From Sphingomonadales bacterium BRH_c3 (lineage in GTDB: Bacteria > Pseudomonadota > Alphaproteobacteria > Sphingomonadales > Sphingomonadaceae): a DNA stretch of 38,441 nucleotides. The first letter of the stretch is position 1. Every line of letters starts with the position of its first letter. This document shows positions 21,094 to 25,642 of the stretch, piece after piece. The translations under genes and the position numbers were made by a program. The DNA lies in contig LOET01000065.1 of assembly GCA_001515985.1 (NCBI GenBank), forward strand, positions 1-38,441, in the 5' to 3' direction. The notes beneath the pieces were generated by a model. The model saw only the letters and a program-made list of their open reading frames with translations. It was not told where the DNA came from and did not search any database.

Positions 21094-22980
21094 ATGGCGA
21101 CCCAGGCCGCTCATACGCCGCCAGAAGCGGCACTTCACCAACAACCTGATGCCGTGGTGGTCCGCTTTGCGGGCGATAGCGGCGACGGGATGCAGTTGAC
21201 CGGCGGGCAATTTACGCTTTCGACCGCGCTGGCAGGCAATGATCTCGCCACTTTCCCCGATTTTCCGGCGGAGATCCGCGCGCCGCAAGGCACGCTGTTC
21301 GGCGTATCCGCATTCCAGATCAATTTCGGCAGCCGCGAGATCGACACTGCGGGCGATGCACCCGATGTGCTGGTGGCGATGAACCCGGCGGCGCTGAAAA
21401 CCAATCTTTCCGCGCTCAAGCCGGGCGGGCTGATCATTGCCGACACCGGCGAATTCACCAAGCGCAATCTCGACAAGGCGAAATACAAGGCCAACCCGCT
21501 GGAAGACGGGAGCCTGGCCAAATATGATTTGCTGGCCTTCGATATCAGCGCGCTGACGATTGAAGCGGTCAAGCCGTTTGGCTTGGGCAACAAGGATGCG
21601 CTGCGCAGCAAGAACATGTGGACGCTGGGCTTGGCGCTGTGGATGTTCGACCGTTCGCGGGAGCCTATCCACGAGTGGCTGCGGGCAAAGTTCAAGTCCA
21701 AGCCGGATATTGCAGACGCCAATATCGCCGCGCTCGACGCCGGCCATGCCTATGGCGAGACGGCTGAGCTGTCCGGCCCGCTCAAGCAGCTGCATTTGCC
21801 GCCGGTGCCAACGGAGGCCGGGCTCTACCGCACCATAACGGGGGCGGAATCGGTTTCGCTGGGCCTCGTCGCAGGGGCACAGCTGGCCGGTCTGCCGATG
21901 TTCTTCGGCGGCTATCCGATCACGCCTGCCAGCGCGATCCTGCACCATCTTGCCCGGCTCAAGGAATACAATGTCACCACCTTCCAGGCGGAAGACGAGA
22001 TCGCCGCGATCTGCGCCGCGATCGGCGCCAGCTATGCCGGCAGCCTTGGCGTAACCAGCTCATCGGGCCCCGGCATTGCGCTGAAGGGTGAGGCAATGGG
22101 CCTTGCCATCATGACCGAGCTGCCGCTGGTGATCGTCAATTCGCAGCGCGGCGGGCCGTCCACCGGCCTTCCGACCAAAACCGAGCAGAGCGATCTCTAC
22201 CAGGCCGTCTATGGCCGCAATGGCGATGCGCCGATGCCGGTGATTGCTGCGTGCAGCCCCAGCGATGCGTTCGAATGCGCGATCGAGGCCTGCCGCATAG
22301 CGACCCAGTACATGACGCCGGTGATGCTGCTGACAGATGGCTATATCGCCAATGCAGCCGAGCCATGGAAAGTGCCCGATCCGGCCAGTTTCGAGCCGTT
22401 CCCCGCCAACTTCCTGACTGAGAAAAACGGGCCTGCCAATGAGAGTGGGGATACCACGCTGCTTCCCTACAAGCGCGACAGCAAGGGCGCGCGGCCCTGG
22501 ATCAAGCCCGGCACGCCAGGCCTGATGCACCGCATCGGCGGGATCGAGAAGCAAGTCGACACCGGCCATCTCGATTATTCGCCTGACAACCACCAGGCGA
22601 TGACCGATGCGCGCCAGGCGAAGGTGCTGAACATTTCGGTGCCCGATCAGGCGGTGAGCCTGGGCGAAGCGGGTGGCAAGCTGGTAGTGGTCGGCTGGGG
22701 CAGCACCTATGGCCCGATCCATCAGGCGGTGCGCCGGGCGAGGGCCAAGGGGCTGGACGTCAGCCATATCCATGTGCGCCATATCTGGCCGCTGCCCGGC
22801 AATCTGGGCGAGCTGCTCAAGAGTTATGACAAGGTGCTGGTGCCCGAAATGAACACCGGCCAGTTCAAGACCGTGCTGCGCGACCAGTATCTGGTCGATG
22901 CACAGCCGCTCAACAAGACAAGCGGGCAACCATTCTATATCCATGAGCTAGAAGAAGCGATCGAGGAGGCTTTGGCATGA
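21094..22980 (+). CDS. korA: 2-oxoacid:ferredoxin oxidoreductase, fused gamma-alpha subunit
   Basis: Subunit (628 residues) of a CoA-dependent 2-oxoacid:ferredoxin oxidoreductase, probably acting on 2-oxoglutarate. The N-terminal gamma domain (about residues 20-200) starts VVVRFAGDSGDGMQLTGGQF; the alpha domain follows (GNKDAL..., MFFGGYPITPASAI, QAEDEIAAICAAIGASYAG, TSSSGPGIALKGEAMGLA). A gamma-alpha fusion is typical of KorA of aerobic actinobacteria and proteobacteria. AAGGA with six-base spacing supports ATG 21094 over the ATGs at 21052 and 21088. It overlaps korB by four bases (ATGA). The electron acceptor ferredoxin is not encoded nearby. Confidence 0.92.
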   Translation: MATQAAHTPPEAALHQQPDAVVVRFAGDSGDGMQLTGGQFTLSTALAGNDLATFPDFPAEIRAPQGTLFGVSAFQINFGSREIDTAGDAPDVLVAMNPAALKTNLSALKPGGLIIADTGEFTKRNLDKAKYKANPLEDGSLAKYDLLAFDISALTIEAVKPFGLGNKDALRSKNMWTLGLALWMFDRSREPIHEWLRAKFKSKPDIADANIAALDAGHAYGETAELSGPLKQLHLPPVPTEAGLYRTITGAESVSLGLVAGAQLAGLPMFFGGYPITPASAILHHLARLKEYNVTTFQAEDEIAAICAAIGASYAGSLGVTSSSGPGIALKGEAMGLAIMTELPLVIVNSQRGGPSTGLPTKTEQSDLYQAVYGRNGDAPMPVIAACSPSDAFECAIEACRIATQYMTPVMLLTDGYIANAAEPWKVPDPASFEPFPANFLTEKNGPANESGDTTLLPYKRDSKGARPWIKPGTPGLMHRIGGIEKQVDTGHLDYSPDNHQAMTDARQAKVLNISVPDQAVSLGEAGGKLVVVGWGSTYGPIHQAVRRARAKGLDVSHIHVRHIWPLPGNLGELLKSYDKVLVPEMNTGQFKTVLRDQYLVDAQPLNKTSGQPFYIHELEEAIEEALA

Positions 22981-24011
22981 ACGCTCCAACCAAGATCGAG
23001 ACCACGCTCAAGGATTGGGAAACCGATCAGGAAGTGCGCTGGTGCCCCGGCTGCGGGGACTATGCGATCCTGAAGGCGGTGCAGCGCACGCTGCCGCAAT
23101 TGGGCGCTGACCCTTCCAACACCTGCTTCATCAGCGGGATCGGCTGTTCCAGCCGCTTTCCCTATTACATGGAGACTTACGGTTTCCACACCATCCATGG
23201 GCGCGCACCTGCGGTTGCCACGGGCGTGAAGCTGGCCAATCCCGATCTCGACGTGTGGCTGGTGACGGGGGACGGCGATGGGCTGTCGATCGGCGGAAAT
23301 CACATGCTGCATGTGCTGCGCCGCAATGTGAACATGCAGATCATGCTGTTCAACAATGAGATCTACGGCCTGACCAAGGGGCAGTATTCGCCCACCAGCC
23401 GTATCGGCACGCGCAGCCCCTCGACCCCGATTGGATCGGTGGACCGGCCCGCCAATCCTTGCGCCTTTGCACTGGGTGCGGGCGCGCGCTTTGTCGGGCG
23501 CGGGTTTGACGTATCGAAGAACCTGCCTGACGTGCTCAAGGCCGCGCATGCCCACCAGGGCGCCGCTTTCATCGAGATCTTCCAGAACTGCATCGTCTAC
23601 AACAAGGATGTGTTCAACGATTTCGCCGCGCCCAAGGGGGCGGAGGATCGCCAGCTGTGGCTCGAGAACGGGCAGCCGATGCTGTTCGACGGCGGCACCA
23701 AGGGAATTGCGCTCGACAAGGACAATCTCTGCCTCAAGGTAGTGGATGTGGCAGACGGCAATTGGGAAGCGGCGGGCGTGATCGTGCACGATGTCACCAA
23801 CCGTTCGATCGCGCATATGCTGGTCGAGCTGCCCTTCGGCCCGTTCCCGATGGCGCTGGGCGTGCTCTATGACGATCCGCGCCCGACCTTCGAGATGGGC
23901 GTGGCCGGAGAACGCGAGCGTGCGACATCCGGCAAGCAGGCGAACCTTGCCAAGCTGCTTGGCTCTGGCCAGACCTGGACGGTGAGCGGGACGGCGCAGG
24001 ATCCGATCTGA
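22977..24011 (+). CDS. korB: 2-oxoacid:ferredoxin oxidoreductase, beta subunit
   Basis: Beta subunit (344 residues) carrying thiamine diphosphate and a [4Fe-4S] cluster. Cluster ligands are C23 and C26 in RWCPGCGDYAIL, C57 in SGIGCSSRFPYY, and a late cysteine in EIFQNCIVYN. The TPP-Mg motif is TGDGDGLSIGGNH...NNEIYGLTKGQYSPTS. GFHTIHGRAPAVATG is conserved in KorB/OorB. 2-oxoglutarate as substrate is inferred from overall similarity; pyruvate is less likely. Confidence 0.93.
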   Translation: MNAPTKIETTLKDWETDQEVRWCPGCGDYAILKAVQRTLPQLGADPSNTCFISGIGCSSRFPYYMETYGFHTIHGRAPAVATGVKLANPDLDVWLVTGDGDGLSIGGNHMLHVLRRNVNMQIMLFNNEIYGLTKGQYSPTSRIGTRSPSTPIGSVDRPANPCAFALGAGARFVGRGFDVSKNLPDVLKAAHAHQGAAFIEIFQNCIVYNKDVFNDFAAPKGAEDRQLWLENGQPMLFDGGTKGIALDKDNLCLKVVDVADGNWEAAGVIVHDVTNRSIAHMLVELPFGPFPMALGVLYDDPRPTFEMGVAGERERATSGKQANLAKLLGSGQTWTVSGTAQDPI

Positions 24012-24016
24012 TTTTT

Positions 24017-24475
24017 CGGTTCACACGAAGACACGAAGATGGAGCGCAAGGCCGATATCGAGGAATTGGCCAGGGAGGTTGTCGATTGTGGCTTCCATTT
24101 GCACAAGGACCTCGGGCCGGGCTTGCTTGAAAGCGCGTATGAGACGCTGATGGCAGCGGAGCTTGGTCGGCGCGGATTGGACGTCGTCCGACAGGTGCCG
24201 GTTCCACTCAAATACAAAGGCGTTGTCGTAGACAACGCATTCAAGATCGATCTGCTTGTCGATCGGCAATTGATTGTGGAACTGAAATCGATTGAGCGCC
24301 TAGCTCCGGTTCATGGCAAACAGGTTCTAACTTATCTTCGGCTGATGGGACTACCGCTGGGCCTCCTGATGAACTTTGGTCAAGGGACCTTCAAGGATGG
24401 TCTCAGACGCATCGCCAATGATTACTTTGGCCGAATCGGTTAGGCTCGACATCTTCGTGTCTTCGTGTGAAACCG
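24017..24475. mobile_element. GxxExxY cassette bounded by 24/25-base inverted repeats
   Basis: Left repeat 24017-24040 and right repeat 24451-24475 are reverse complements except for one extra T in the right copy. Each contains a tandem ACACGAAG octamer. The left copy runs into the ATG (24039) and the right copy begins seven bases after the TAG, so the repeats wrap exactly one gene. No target duplication is evident. There is no transposase; mobility is inferred from the architecture only. Confidence 0.6.
24039..24443 (+). CDS. GxxExxY protein (PD-(D/E)XK nuclease-like)
   Basis: A 134-residue member of the GxxExxY family (TIGR04256), a PD-(D/E)XK superfamily relative. The name motif appears as GLLESAYE in HLHKDLGPGLLESAYETL. 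A nuclease-like core FKIDLLVDRQLIVELKSIE supplies D...E-x-K, followed by LTYLRLMGLPLGLLMNFGQ, all family-like. Its biological role is not established. Base composition looks less GC-rich than the flanking korB. The ATG lies in the left inverted repeat and there is no good ribosome binding site, so expression may depend on read-through from korB, 27 bases upstream. Confidence 0.88.
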   Translation: MERKADIEELAREVVDCGFHLHKDLGPGLLESAYETLMAAELGRRGLDVVRQVPVPLKYKGVVVDNAFKIDLLVDRQLIVELKSIERLAPVHGKQVLTYLRLMGLPLGLLMNFGQGTFKDGLRRIANDYFGRIG

Positions 24476-24541
24476 GATCGTCCTCAAGTAGCGGTTGCGA
24501 AGCACAGCCGAAGGCTGAACCGATAGGACAAACAAAACCGC

Positions 24542-25519
24542 ATGGACAATATCACCCATAGCCTTGTCGGCGCGCTGATCGGGCAGGCCGGGCTCAAGCG
24601 CAAGACGGGACTGGCGATGCCCGCGCTCATCGTGGGCGCGAACCTGCCCGATGTCGATGCGGCGTGTTTCTTCTGGCTGGAGGGGGTGGAGCACCTCGGC
24701 TTCCGCCGCGGGATCACGCATGGCCCGCCCGCGTTGGTGCTGCTGCCCTTGGTGCTGGCGGGGCTGCTGTGGGGATATGACCACTGGCAGGCCAAACGAG
24801 GGAAACGACCTGAGGGGCGGCTGCCGGTCAATTTCAAATGGCTGTTCCTGCTGAGCTTCCTCGGCTGCCTGACCCACCCGGCGCTTGATTGGCTGAATGT
24901 CTATGGCATTCGTTTGCTCGAGCCATTCTCGAGCCAGTGGTTCTATGGCGACACGCTGTTCATCATCGATGTGTGGCTGTGGGCGCTGTTGGGCTTTGCC
25001 ACGTGGTTTTCGCTCCGGCGCGAGAAGCGAGGCGGGGAGTGGATGCGGCCTGCGCGAATCGCGATTGCAGTGGCGCTGGGGTATATAGGGTTGAACGGGG
25101 CGATAACGTCCTCGGCAGAGCACAACGCTAGAAATGAAATGTTGGGATTCGGGGTCGAACCTGAAACGATTATGGCTAGCCCGCTGCCCCTCGCTTTTTG
25201 GGAGCGAGAGTTGCTGCTCGGCGGTAACGGTTATTGGGGCGAGTTTGATGGTCAAGCGGACACCCACACGAGTATAAAAATTTTCGATCTAACCGACGAA
25301 TTTTGTGACCTTGAAAAGGCCATCGAAGGAGCAAACGAAACTAAGGAGCTTACCGCCTTCCTCTTCTGGTCGCGCGCTCCCTTTGCCGAGCGGGCACCGG
25401 ACGGCTCGGTCGTCCTCCGCGATGCCCGCTTCTACGATCCACGTGCGCGGGACCGGTTTTCGGTCGCGCTGCCGGATGTGAAGTGTGAGCCCATGGGCGA
25501 GGAACTTTCCACGCCCTAA
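24542..25519 (+). CDS. Membrane-bound metal-dependent hydrolase, YdjM/YbcI-like
   Basis: A 325-residue membrane protein resembling PF04307 (YdjM, LexA-regulated putative hydrolase). Conserved histidines and aspartates lie in MDNITHSLVGALIGQAG, GANLPDVDA, RGITHGPPALVLLPL and THPALDWLNVYGIRLLEPF. About four to five membrane helices are followed by a roughly 130-residue soluble tail (from about residue 195) that is less GC-rich and not typical of short family members. The function is unknown; metal-dependent hydrolysis is predicted only from the family. Confidence 0.82.
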   Translation: MDNITHSLVGALIGQAGLKRKTGLAMPALIVGANLPDVDAACFFWLEGVEHLGFRRGITHGPPALVLLPLVLAGLLWGYDHWQAKRGKRPEGRLPVNFKWLFLLSFLGCLTHPALDWLNVYGIRLLEPFSSQWFYGDTLFIIDVWLWALLGFATWFSLRREKRGGEWMRPARIAIAVALGYIGLNGAITSSAEHNARNEMLGFGVEPETIMASPLPLAFWERELLLGGNGYWGEFDGQADTHTSIKIFDLTDEFCDLEKAIEGANETKELTAFLFWSRAPFAERAPDGSVVLRDARFYDPRARDRFSVALPDVKCEPMGEELSTP

Positions 25520-25521
25520 TT

Positions 25522-25615
25522 CGTCATTGCGAGGAGCCGGAGGCGACGAAGCAATCCACGGAACAAACGAACGCACCATGGATTGCCGCGGCGACTGTGT
25601 CGCCTCGCAATGACG
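25522..25615. repeat. Compound palindromic intergenic repeat
   Basis: CGTCATTGCGAGG (25522-25534) is a perfect inverted copy of CCTCGCAATGACG (25603-25615), with inner arms GCAATCCA (25551-25558) and TGGATTGC (25579-25586). The outer arm, gtcattgcgagg with a nearby gcgacgaagcaatcca, is a repeat type I recognise from intergenic sites in many bacterial genomes. It fills almost all of the gap between the YdjM-like gene and the photolyase gene. Confidence 0.8.
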
Positions 25616-25642
25616 TAAGGGGGGATTGCGAGATATGAGACC

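Follow-up and report, generated by a model that had tools for sequence, protein, structure and literature searches.

RAYTs are thought to act on REPINs, and their gene phylogeny is described as largely following that of the species, with gene and repeats co-evolving (PMC3116915). The 23S rRNA intervening sequence (IVS) of Coxiella is 428 nt long and carries an ORF for the four-helix protein S23p, a terminal inverted repeat of 28 bp, and tandem heptamers; it is cut by RNase III, and the function and origin of 23S rRNA IVS are called unclear in the same source (PMC4990558).

The window, i.e., the whole stretch of 38,441 nucleotides that was analysed (contig LOET01000065.1 of Sphingomonadales bacterium BRH_c3), contains one GxxExxY gene between inverted arms, and cassettes of this family are found in several bacterial phyla. 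The reading that we prefer, with a probability of roughly 0.45, is that of a RAYT/REPIN-like one-gene DNA cassette of ~460 bp whose PD-(D/E)XK protein would act on its own arms. Taken together, the observations point to a minimal and possibly mobile element of a kind not yet described.

The cassette resembles REP/REPIN-RAYT systems in its single gene with inverted repeats beside it, in the presence of gene-less short-spacer inverted pairs elsewhere in some genomes, in a gene phylogeny that mostly follows the species, and in the co-evolution of gene and repeats (PMC3116915). Unlike these systems, it has a predicted PD-(D/E)XK fold and not a tyrosine transposase, its arms are tandem C[AG]CNNAG units, and gene-less copies were found in one family (f43) only and not in the window's genome. 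With MITEs and other short inverted-repeat elements it shares terminal inverted repeats, small size, and presence or absence at a site among relatives, whereas it differs from them in having its own nuclease-fold gene under purifying selection, in that no target-site duplication was seen by eye between the diverged flanks, and in the orientation of the upstream gene (co-directional in 104/117 cases, a raw count without background rate). Rpn proteins (YhgA-like, transposase_31) belong to the PD-(D/E)XK superfamily. These recombination-promoting nucleases have been linked to DNA mobility (PMC5350276), which is their likeness to the present case, but they constitute a different Pfam family (PF04754 versus PF13366 of GxxExxY).

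A profile model exists for the GxxExxY family. In the literature search, which covered listings and selected passages of mostly open-access text, GxxExxY was seen in passing mentions, and neither a function nor a description of the matched-arm architecture was found. The matched-arm cassette supplies a concrete substrate hypothesis for this family, and the arms provide a DNA signature for finding copies, empty sites, and gene-less relatives.

Anatomy of the cassette and its protein

A sequence-only reading of the window had located one GxxExxY gene packed between near-perfect inverted repeats at 24017-24475, and this arrangement was confirmed. The features are the following (positions are those of the window).

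22977 to 24011, plus strand: korB-like gene (2-oxoacid:acceptor oxidoreductase beta subunit), upstream and co-directional
24017 to 24041, plus strand: left arm, CGGTTCACACGAAGACACGAAGATG, 25 nt, with the start codon within; inverted match to the right arm
24039 to 24443, plus strand: gene of the GxxExxY protein (TIGR04256 / PF13366 PDDEXK_3), 134 aa
24450 to 24475, minus strand: right arm, inverted copy of the left arm, 26 nt as reverse complement, one T extra
24542 to 25519, plus strand: gene of a YdjM-like inner membrane protein, downstream and co-directional

The cassette comprises 459 bases and one gene, and a second family-matched gene was not found within it. The arms match exactly over 22 nt (24020-24041 and 24450-24471) and over 3 nt more with one indel; the second-best inverted repeat in the 3.3-kb locus scored 13, compared to 22 for the arms. 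The left arm contains the ATG of the 134-aa ORF, and the right arm starts 7 bases after the stop codon, both as originally read; the ATG makes up the innermost three bases of its arm. The arm lengths, previously given as 24 and 25 bases, had to be corrected to 25 and 26. The tandem octamer reported for each repeat was found as well: ACACGAAG is located at 24023-24030 and 24031-24038 and recurs inverted in the right arm. Expressed as 7-mers, two CACGAAG units are positioned 8 bp apart in the left arm (24024-24030 and 24032-24038) and two, likewise 8 bp apart, on the minus strand of the right arm (24453-24459 and 24461-24467). The left arm follows the stop codon of the korB-like gene by 5 nt, 66 nt separate the right arm from the YdjM-like gene, and the three genes run in the same direction. 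The korB-like gene scored 250.9 bits, which is under the TIGR02177 cut-off of 261.9.

The window's genome (82% complete) harbors one GxxExxY copy only. Its contig C133 carries two direct solo arms (locus L003, 340-370 and 594-619), which have the same direction, lie ~250 bp apart, and are both preceded by a similar CGACCGGCTGGG stretch; the gene downstream of them starts with what is presumably a TIR-type domain. In the window, the segment 24476-24541, directly after the right arm, belongs to a dispersed repeat of 50-60 bp that contains a hairpin; at least about twenty genus genomes have separate copies of it with 82-98% identity among the matches listed. Another inverted repeat (CGTCATTGCGAGG ... 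CCTCGCAATGACG), located 3' of the ydjM-like gene at 25524-25617, resembles a palindromic repeat element.

The protein encoded by the cassette matched TIGR04256 (129.5 bits versus a cut-off of 35, E 7e-38) and PF13366 (PDDEXK_3; 130.3 bits versus a cut-off of 22, E 6e-38); these were its only matches, and none to a Y1 transposase was obtained. The AlphaFold2 model has a mean pLDDT of 92.3. Foldseek comparisons of this model yielded weak similarity to Hjc (2wj0; probability 0.96, best E 0.013, TM 0.41-0.44) and to Cas4 (4ic1; probability 0.99, E 0.018, TM 0.46 by query length). Across the named Hjc and Cas4 hits, TM-scores were 0.41-0.50, the best chain of either staying below 0.5. None of the Foldseek matches had an E below 0.001, and a search by sequence gave no convincing solved relative (one match, E 0.93). 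D71, E81, and K83, which are candidates for the catalytic residues, show no variation across 51 aligned sequences, the window's included. In the genus set, K83 is replaced by N in one of 20 sequences (L023), the flanks of which are armed nonetheless. The protein is predicted to combine a PD-(D/E)XK fold with the D...ExK residues, the combination by which the superfamily is recognised. For 9 of 12 pairs, dN/dS was 0.03-0.28, indicating that the gene is under purifying selection; the remaining three pairs had saturated dS. Membership in a defence system was considered and rejected, as only weak matches to Cas4 and RTasPDDEXK profiles were found (best E 0.0003, in four proteins).

Inverted arms of the GxxExxY family and their co-evolution

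Loci were collected from 150 relatives (15 with the gene), 80 GTDB loci, 398 genomes sampled from the phylum (65 with the gene), and further loci; three analyses each reporting 398 phylum genomes were taken as one sample. The GTDB set consists of the best 80 of 578 confirmed hits and is hence close to the query, and families are unevenly represented, f43 being large. The 197 loci with a hit contained 194 distinct ones, 185 of which were near full length and 177 of which had enough flank. As the arm score, we took the best local alignment between the left flank and the reverse complement of the right flank, and a threshold of at least 14 was applied.

Inverted arms were detected around 131 of the 177 distinct full-length GxxExxY genes, which upholds the interpretation as a minimal cassette. 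At the same threshold, positive scores were obtained for 1/3540 shuffles, 3/444 neighbouring ORFs, and 291/3540 flanks paired between different elements; comparison of the same GxxExxY flanks in direct orientation gave 26/177. Detectable arms were absent at 46 of the 177 genes. According to record titles, the armed loci belong to Pseudomonadota, Verrucomicrobiota, Planctomycetota, Cyanobacteriota, Bacteroidota, desulfobacterial lineages, and others.

The arm-to-arm length is uniform, with a median of 458.5 bp (5-95%: 435-542; 112 elements). This uniformity, the purifying selection on the gene, and the recurrence in several phyla all argue against a remnant of an ordinary insertion sequence that has lost its transposase. 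Such a remnant would have terminal inverted repeats and could be present in some relatives and absent from others, as is the case here; the explanation was already disfavoured and is regarded as very improbable.

Forward-sense units were recovered in 112 of the 131 armed elements by a regular expression (form C[AG]CNN[AC][GCT]), whereas the other 19 have variant or opposite units. Two or three units were present in 185 of 224 arms, and their spacing was 8 in 199 gaps and 9 in 86, with overlapping matches at a spacing of 2 in 30. The position table of the units is conditioned on this expression, which fixes part of the motif; plain counts, which are independent of it, revealed CGCAGAG, CACGAAG, CGCGAAG, CGCAAAG, and CGCGGAG as the commonest arm 7-mers. 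These data show that the arms mostly consist of 2-3 tandem units of the form C[AG]CNNAG, repeated every 8-9 bp. The arm boundary is sharp: ~5 nt beyond the outermost unit common to both arms, the match has dropped to near control level (87 elements; elements with gapped arms were dropped from this test and from the unit test described below). In 44 of 112 elements, the reading frame extends into the right arm, which then encodes the tail of the protein. Of 124 elements examined, 117 allowed an upstream gene to be called, and this gene was co-directional in 104; the left arm starts at a median of 4 nt past its stop codon. On the other side, a median of 13 nt separates the right arm from the next co-directional ORF (85 cases). 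Both neighbours in these orientation counts are the longest ORFs reported by a simple script.

A single repeat sequence shared by all copies had been expected at the outset; instead, the version differs from element to element, and the two arms of any one element match. When each arm was compared with all candidates, its own partner ranked best of 131 in 56 cases and among the top five in 107. The own arm-arm score was 21.2-23.2 in each protein-identity bin from 30 to 95%, whereas the score of swapped arms fell from 21.9 to 8.4 as protein identity dropped from 85-95% to 30-45%. The single pair with >95% protein identity scored 19.0 with own and swapped arms alike.

The same was seen when partners were exchanged among the elements of one site. 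Own arm identity was 0.911 versus 0.750 after permutation at the korB|ydjM site (8 elements), 0.858 versus 0.558 at the SDH|CANSDC site (13 elements), 0.941 versus 0.709 at the SDR site (19 elements), and 0.862 versus 0.656 at an f43 site (13 elements), and in each of these groups 0 of 2000 permutations reached the own value. For a second SDH|CANSDC clade (5 elements), the values were 0.850 and 0.788, with 60/2000 permutations. The same-site groups were listed by hand. Sub-threshold elements (L007 and seven at the f43 site) and L067 are not among them, an omission that works toward higher own identity, and L134 and L019, both with strong arms, are likewise outside the groups. SDH|CANSDC is taken by us to denote a saccharopine-dehydrogenase|carboxynorspermidine-decarboxylase junction, this name and that of the SDR site being assumed from protein sequences. 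The two arms of an element are thereby shown to match even at orthologous sites with changed arm sequence.

Individual units were also compared in 83 elements. Identity was 0.838 for units at paired positions, a figure biased upward because the alignment picks the unit register, versus 0.705 at unpaired positions (p 2e-6) and 0.448 between different elements. This result bears on an operator model, according to which the units would be binding sites of the GxxExxY protein for autoregulation; the arms would change together by tracking the specificity of the protein, and a hairpin would not be needed. The recurrence of unit types (the five 7-mers listed above head the counts), the higher similarity of units within an element (0.69-0.71) than between elements (0.45), and the overlap of the left arm with the start codon in the window are in agreement with such a model. 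Yet it does not anticipate that paired-position units are more alike than unpaired ones, and a mirrored operator 3' of the gene, at times within the reading frame, would be unusual; we consider autoregulatory sites an unlikely explanation.

Alternatively, template switching or gene conversion between the inverted repeats might passively keep the arms alike without any function. Symmetric mismatches and the homogenisation of units within elements would be expected in this case. However, similar units recur across phyla, arms are rare at neighbouring ORFs (3/444), and a spacing of ~400 bp is long for template switching, so that passive homogenisation is judged improbable.

Four-helix-bundle genes, 23S rRNA IVS, and the RNA stem

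Four-helix-bundle (TIGR02436) genes of the phylum were used as a comparison set (L373-L387, L392, L393, and L406-L443), and arms with a score of at least 14 were found in 33 of 54. These arms, too, are matching inverted tandem 7-8-mers, the units being unlike those of GxxExxY; L408, with the unit GTAGGCA, shows a perfect match of 48 nt. The controls for this set were shuffles (1/1080) and cross pairs (47/1080), the neighbouring-ORF control being confined to the GxxExxY set, and direct orientation gave 5/54. Arm mismatches comprised 15 of the G·U type and 29 of the A·C type.

TIGR02436 and S23p are presumably one family. The 23S rRNA IVS with an S23p ORF resemble the GxxExxY cassette in their length (~430-460 bp), in the tandem heptamers next to their one small ORF, and in their terminal inverted repeat (Coxiella IVS, PMC4990558). 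In contrast to them, the GxxExxY cassette is not in rRNA, encodes another protein family, and displays no sign of RNA-level arm selection. Insertion into a ribosomal RNA gene was rejected for the loci studied here: none of seven rRNA landmark motifs occurred in any fetched GxxExxY locus, no Rfam match was obtained anywhere in the window, and the cassette sits between the korB-like gene and ydjM.

The parallel with the IVS raises an RNA-level alternative, in which the arms would pair in read-through mRNA to form an RNase III substrate, and the cassette would be cut out or its start codon hidden, as for the 23S rRNA IVS. The upstream gene is mostly co-directional (the raw count given above), the start codon lies inside the arm in the window, and a strong RNA stem is predicted; the Coxiella IVS (428 nt with an ORF, 28-bp inverted repeat, heptamers) is cut by RNase III (PMC4990558). 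In both the RNA and the DNA fold of 24012-24480 (z -6.6 and -6.8), the arms pair into a stem whose loop contains the gene, so that the fold proposed in the sequence-only reading is predicted to form, but the types of mismatches lend no support to an RNA stem. In the 94 elements over the arm threshold, G·U-type and A·C-type mismatches were balanced (77 versus 92, p 0.28); this absence of a G·U preference gives no sign of selection on a sense-strand RNA stem and is as expected for arms maintained at the DNA level. The four-helix arms have no G·U excess either (15 versus 29). Moreover, the right arm often begins within the reading frame (44/112), and the rRNA landmark motifs were found in none of the loci. 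An RNA-level element therefore appears rather doubtful.

As a tentative proposal, which we hold to be possible, both sets of genes could belong to an unnamed broad class of bacterial elements with a small gene between tandem 7-9-mer inverted arms that co-evolve as DNA. This class would include at least two unrelated families (GxxExxY PD-(D/E)XK and four-helix S23p/bAvd-like), and the 23S rRNA IVS would be those of its members that had inserted into rRNA. Both arms might be built by one common mechanism, either by adding the same unit to both 3' ends in a telomere-like manner or by arm-to-arm copying via a hairpin intermediate. The parallel offers a way into the questions of where IVS come from and how they move.

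Filled and empty sites, movement, and gene-less hairpins

The korB-ydjM region was matched in part by 108 of 114 genus genomes. Eight korB|ydjM junctions were compared. Those of the window, L028, and L041 contain a GxxExxY gene, each flanked by its own pair of arms; the other five, including that of the close relative L029, span 32-217 bp and have no such gene or arms. The prior reading had been set against the case that repeats are absent at other GxxExxY loci and that all close relatives are filled; the actual finding is armed genes at 131 of 177 loci and close relatives lacking the gene at this place. Strains without exactly 24017-24475 had also been predicted. Empty sites do exist in relatives, but the surrounding intergenic bases differ as well, the distance from the korB end to ydjM being 47 bp in L029 and 531 bp in the window.

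At the SDH|CANSDC junction, the empty state consists of an overlapping stop and start codon, TGATG (L197-L199, L201, L202, and L204), and in filled sites the cassette is located immediately 3' of the stop codon. Across species of the genus, this junction (L205-L228) contains many different inserted genes or none, some of the genes being unrelated and armless; since it is a general insertion place, it constitutes, taken alone, weak evidence for specificity. At the filled and empty korB|ydjM and SDH|CANSDC junctions, no target-site duplication was seen by eye, the flanks being too diverged to exclude one.

In a protein tree of 75 elements, 14 site-label changes were counted, compared to a mean of 43.6 after shuffling. 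The tree follows the site closely, which indicates that the cassette is mostly inherited in place and that movement is rare. Supported branches force at least two site-label changes each for SDH|CANSDC and korB|ydjM; these may represent moves between sites, moves away, or a second arrival at the same junction. Overall, inheritance in place seems to be the rule for the cassette, with frequent absence and an occasional change of place, movement being rarer than had been expected at the outset. Transport as phage or plasmid cargo was rejected, as the gene was found in 0 of 50,697 phage records, 7 of 72,556 plasmid records, and, by peptide patterns, three IMG/VR loci.

The matched arms, their symmetric mismatches and sharp ends, the conserved nuclease-fold gene, and the filled and empty sites fit a protein acting on paired arms in DNA. 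According to this preferred reading, the GxxExxY protein would be a nuclease recognising its own paired arms, via units read in sequence and/or via an arm hairpin or four-way junction in single-stranded or extruded DNA. Infrequent excision, loss, and re-insertion could follow from cutting at the arms, as could, in some genomes, the spread of gene-less arm pairs. Such a system would resemble RAYTs with REPINs, a PD-(D/E)XK (Hjc/Cas4-like) enzyme replacing the Y1 (HUH) transposase. Judging from its operon position right behind stop codons, the cassette probably lacks its own promoter and would need read-through transcription. Against this reading stand the rarity of movement, the 46/177 genes without detectable arms, the 26/177 that reach 14 in direct orientation, and the arms of L023 despite its K83N exchange.

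Family f43 contains gene-less hairpins whose arms are of the same kind and enclose a spacer of ~15-110 bp. One strict pattern detected them in 11 of 74 f43 genomes, its reversed-pattern control giving 0. The gene is present in 45 of these 74 genomes, namely in 9/11 with a hairpin and 36/63 without, and the association within f43 is not significant (p 0.18). A second pattern applied to the 398 genomes identified hairpins in five, i.e., in 4/65 with the gene and 1/333 without (p 0.003), an association confounded by kinship because all five belong to f43; in the window's own genome, this pattern found none. Hairpins had already been observed when the two patterns were drawn up. In genome G263, the hairpins L357 and L359 have the same spacer, which L353 and L355 also contain, but no flanks in common either mutually or with those two (null 0-2/200; 36 pairs tested). 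L353, L355, and L358 themselves were rejected as dispersed copies, since they share both flanks and spacer as parts of larger duplications. In L245 (1380-2200), arm units lie inside an apparent tandemly repeated coding sequence with a period of ~165 bp.
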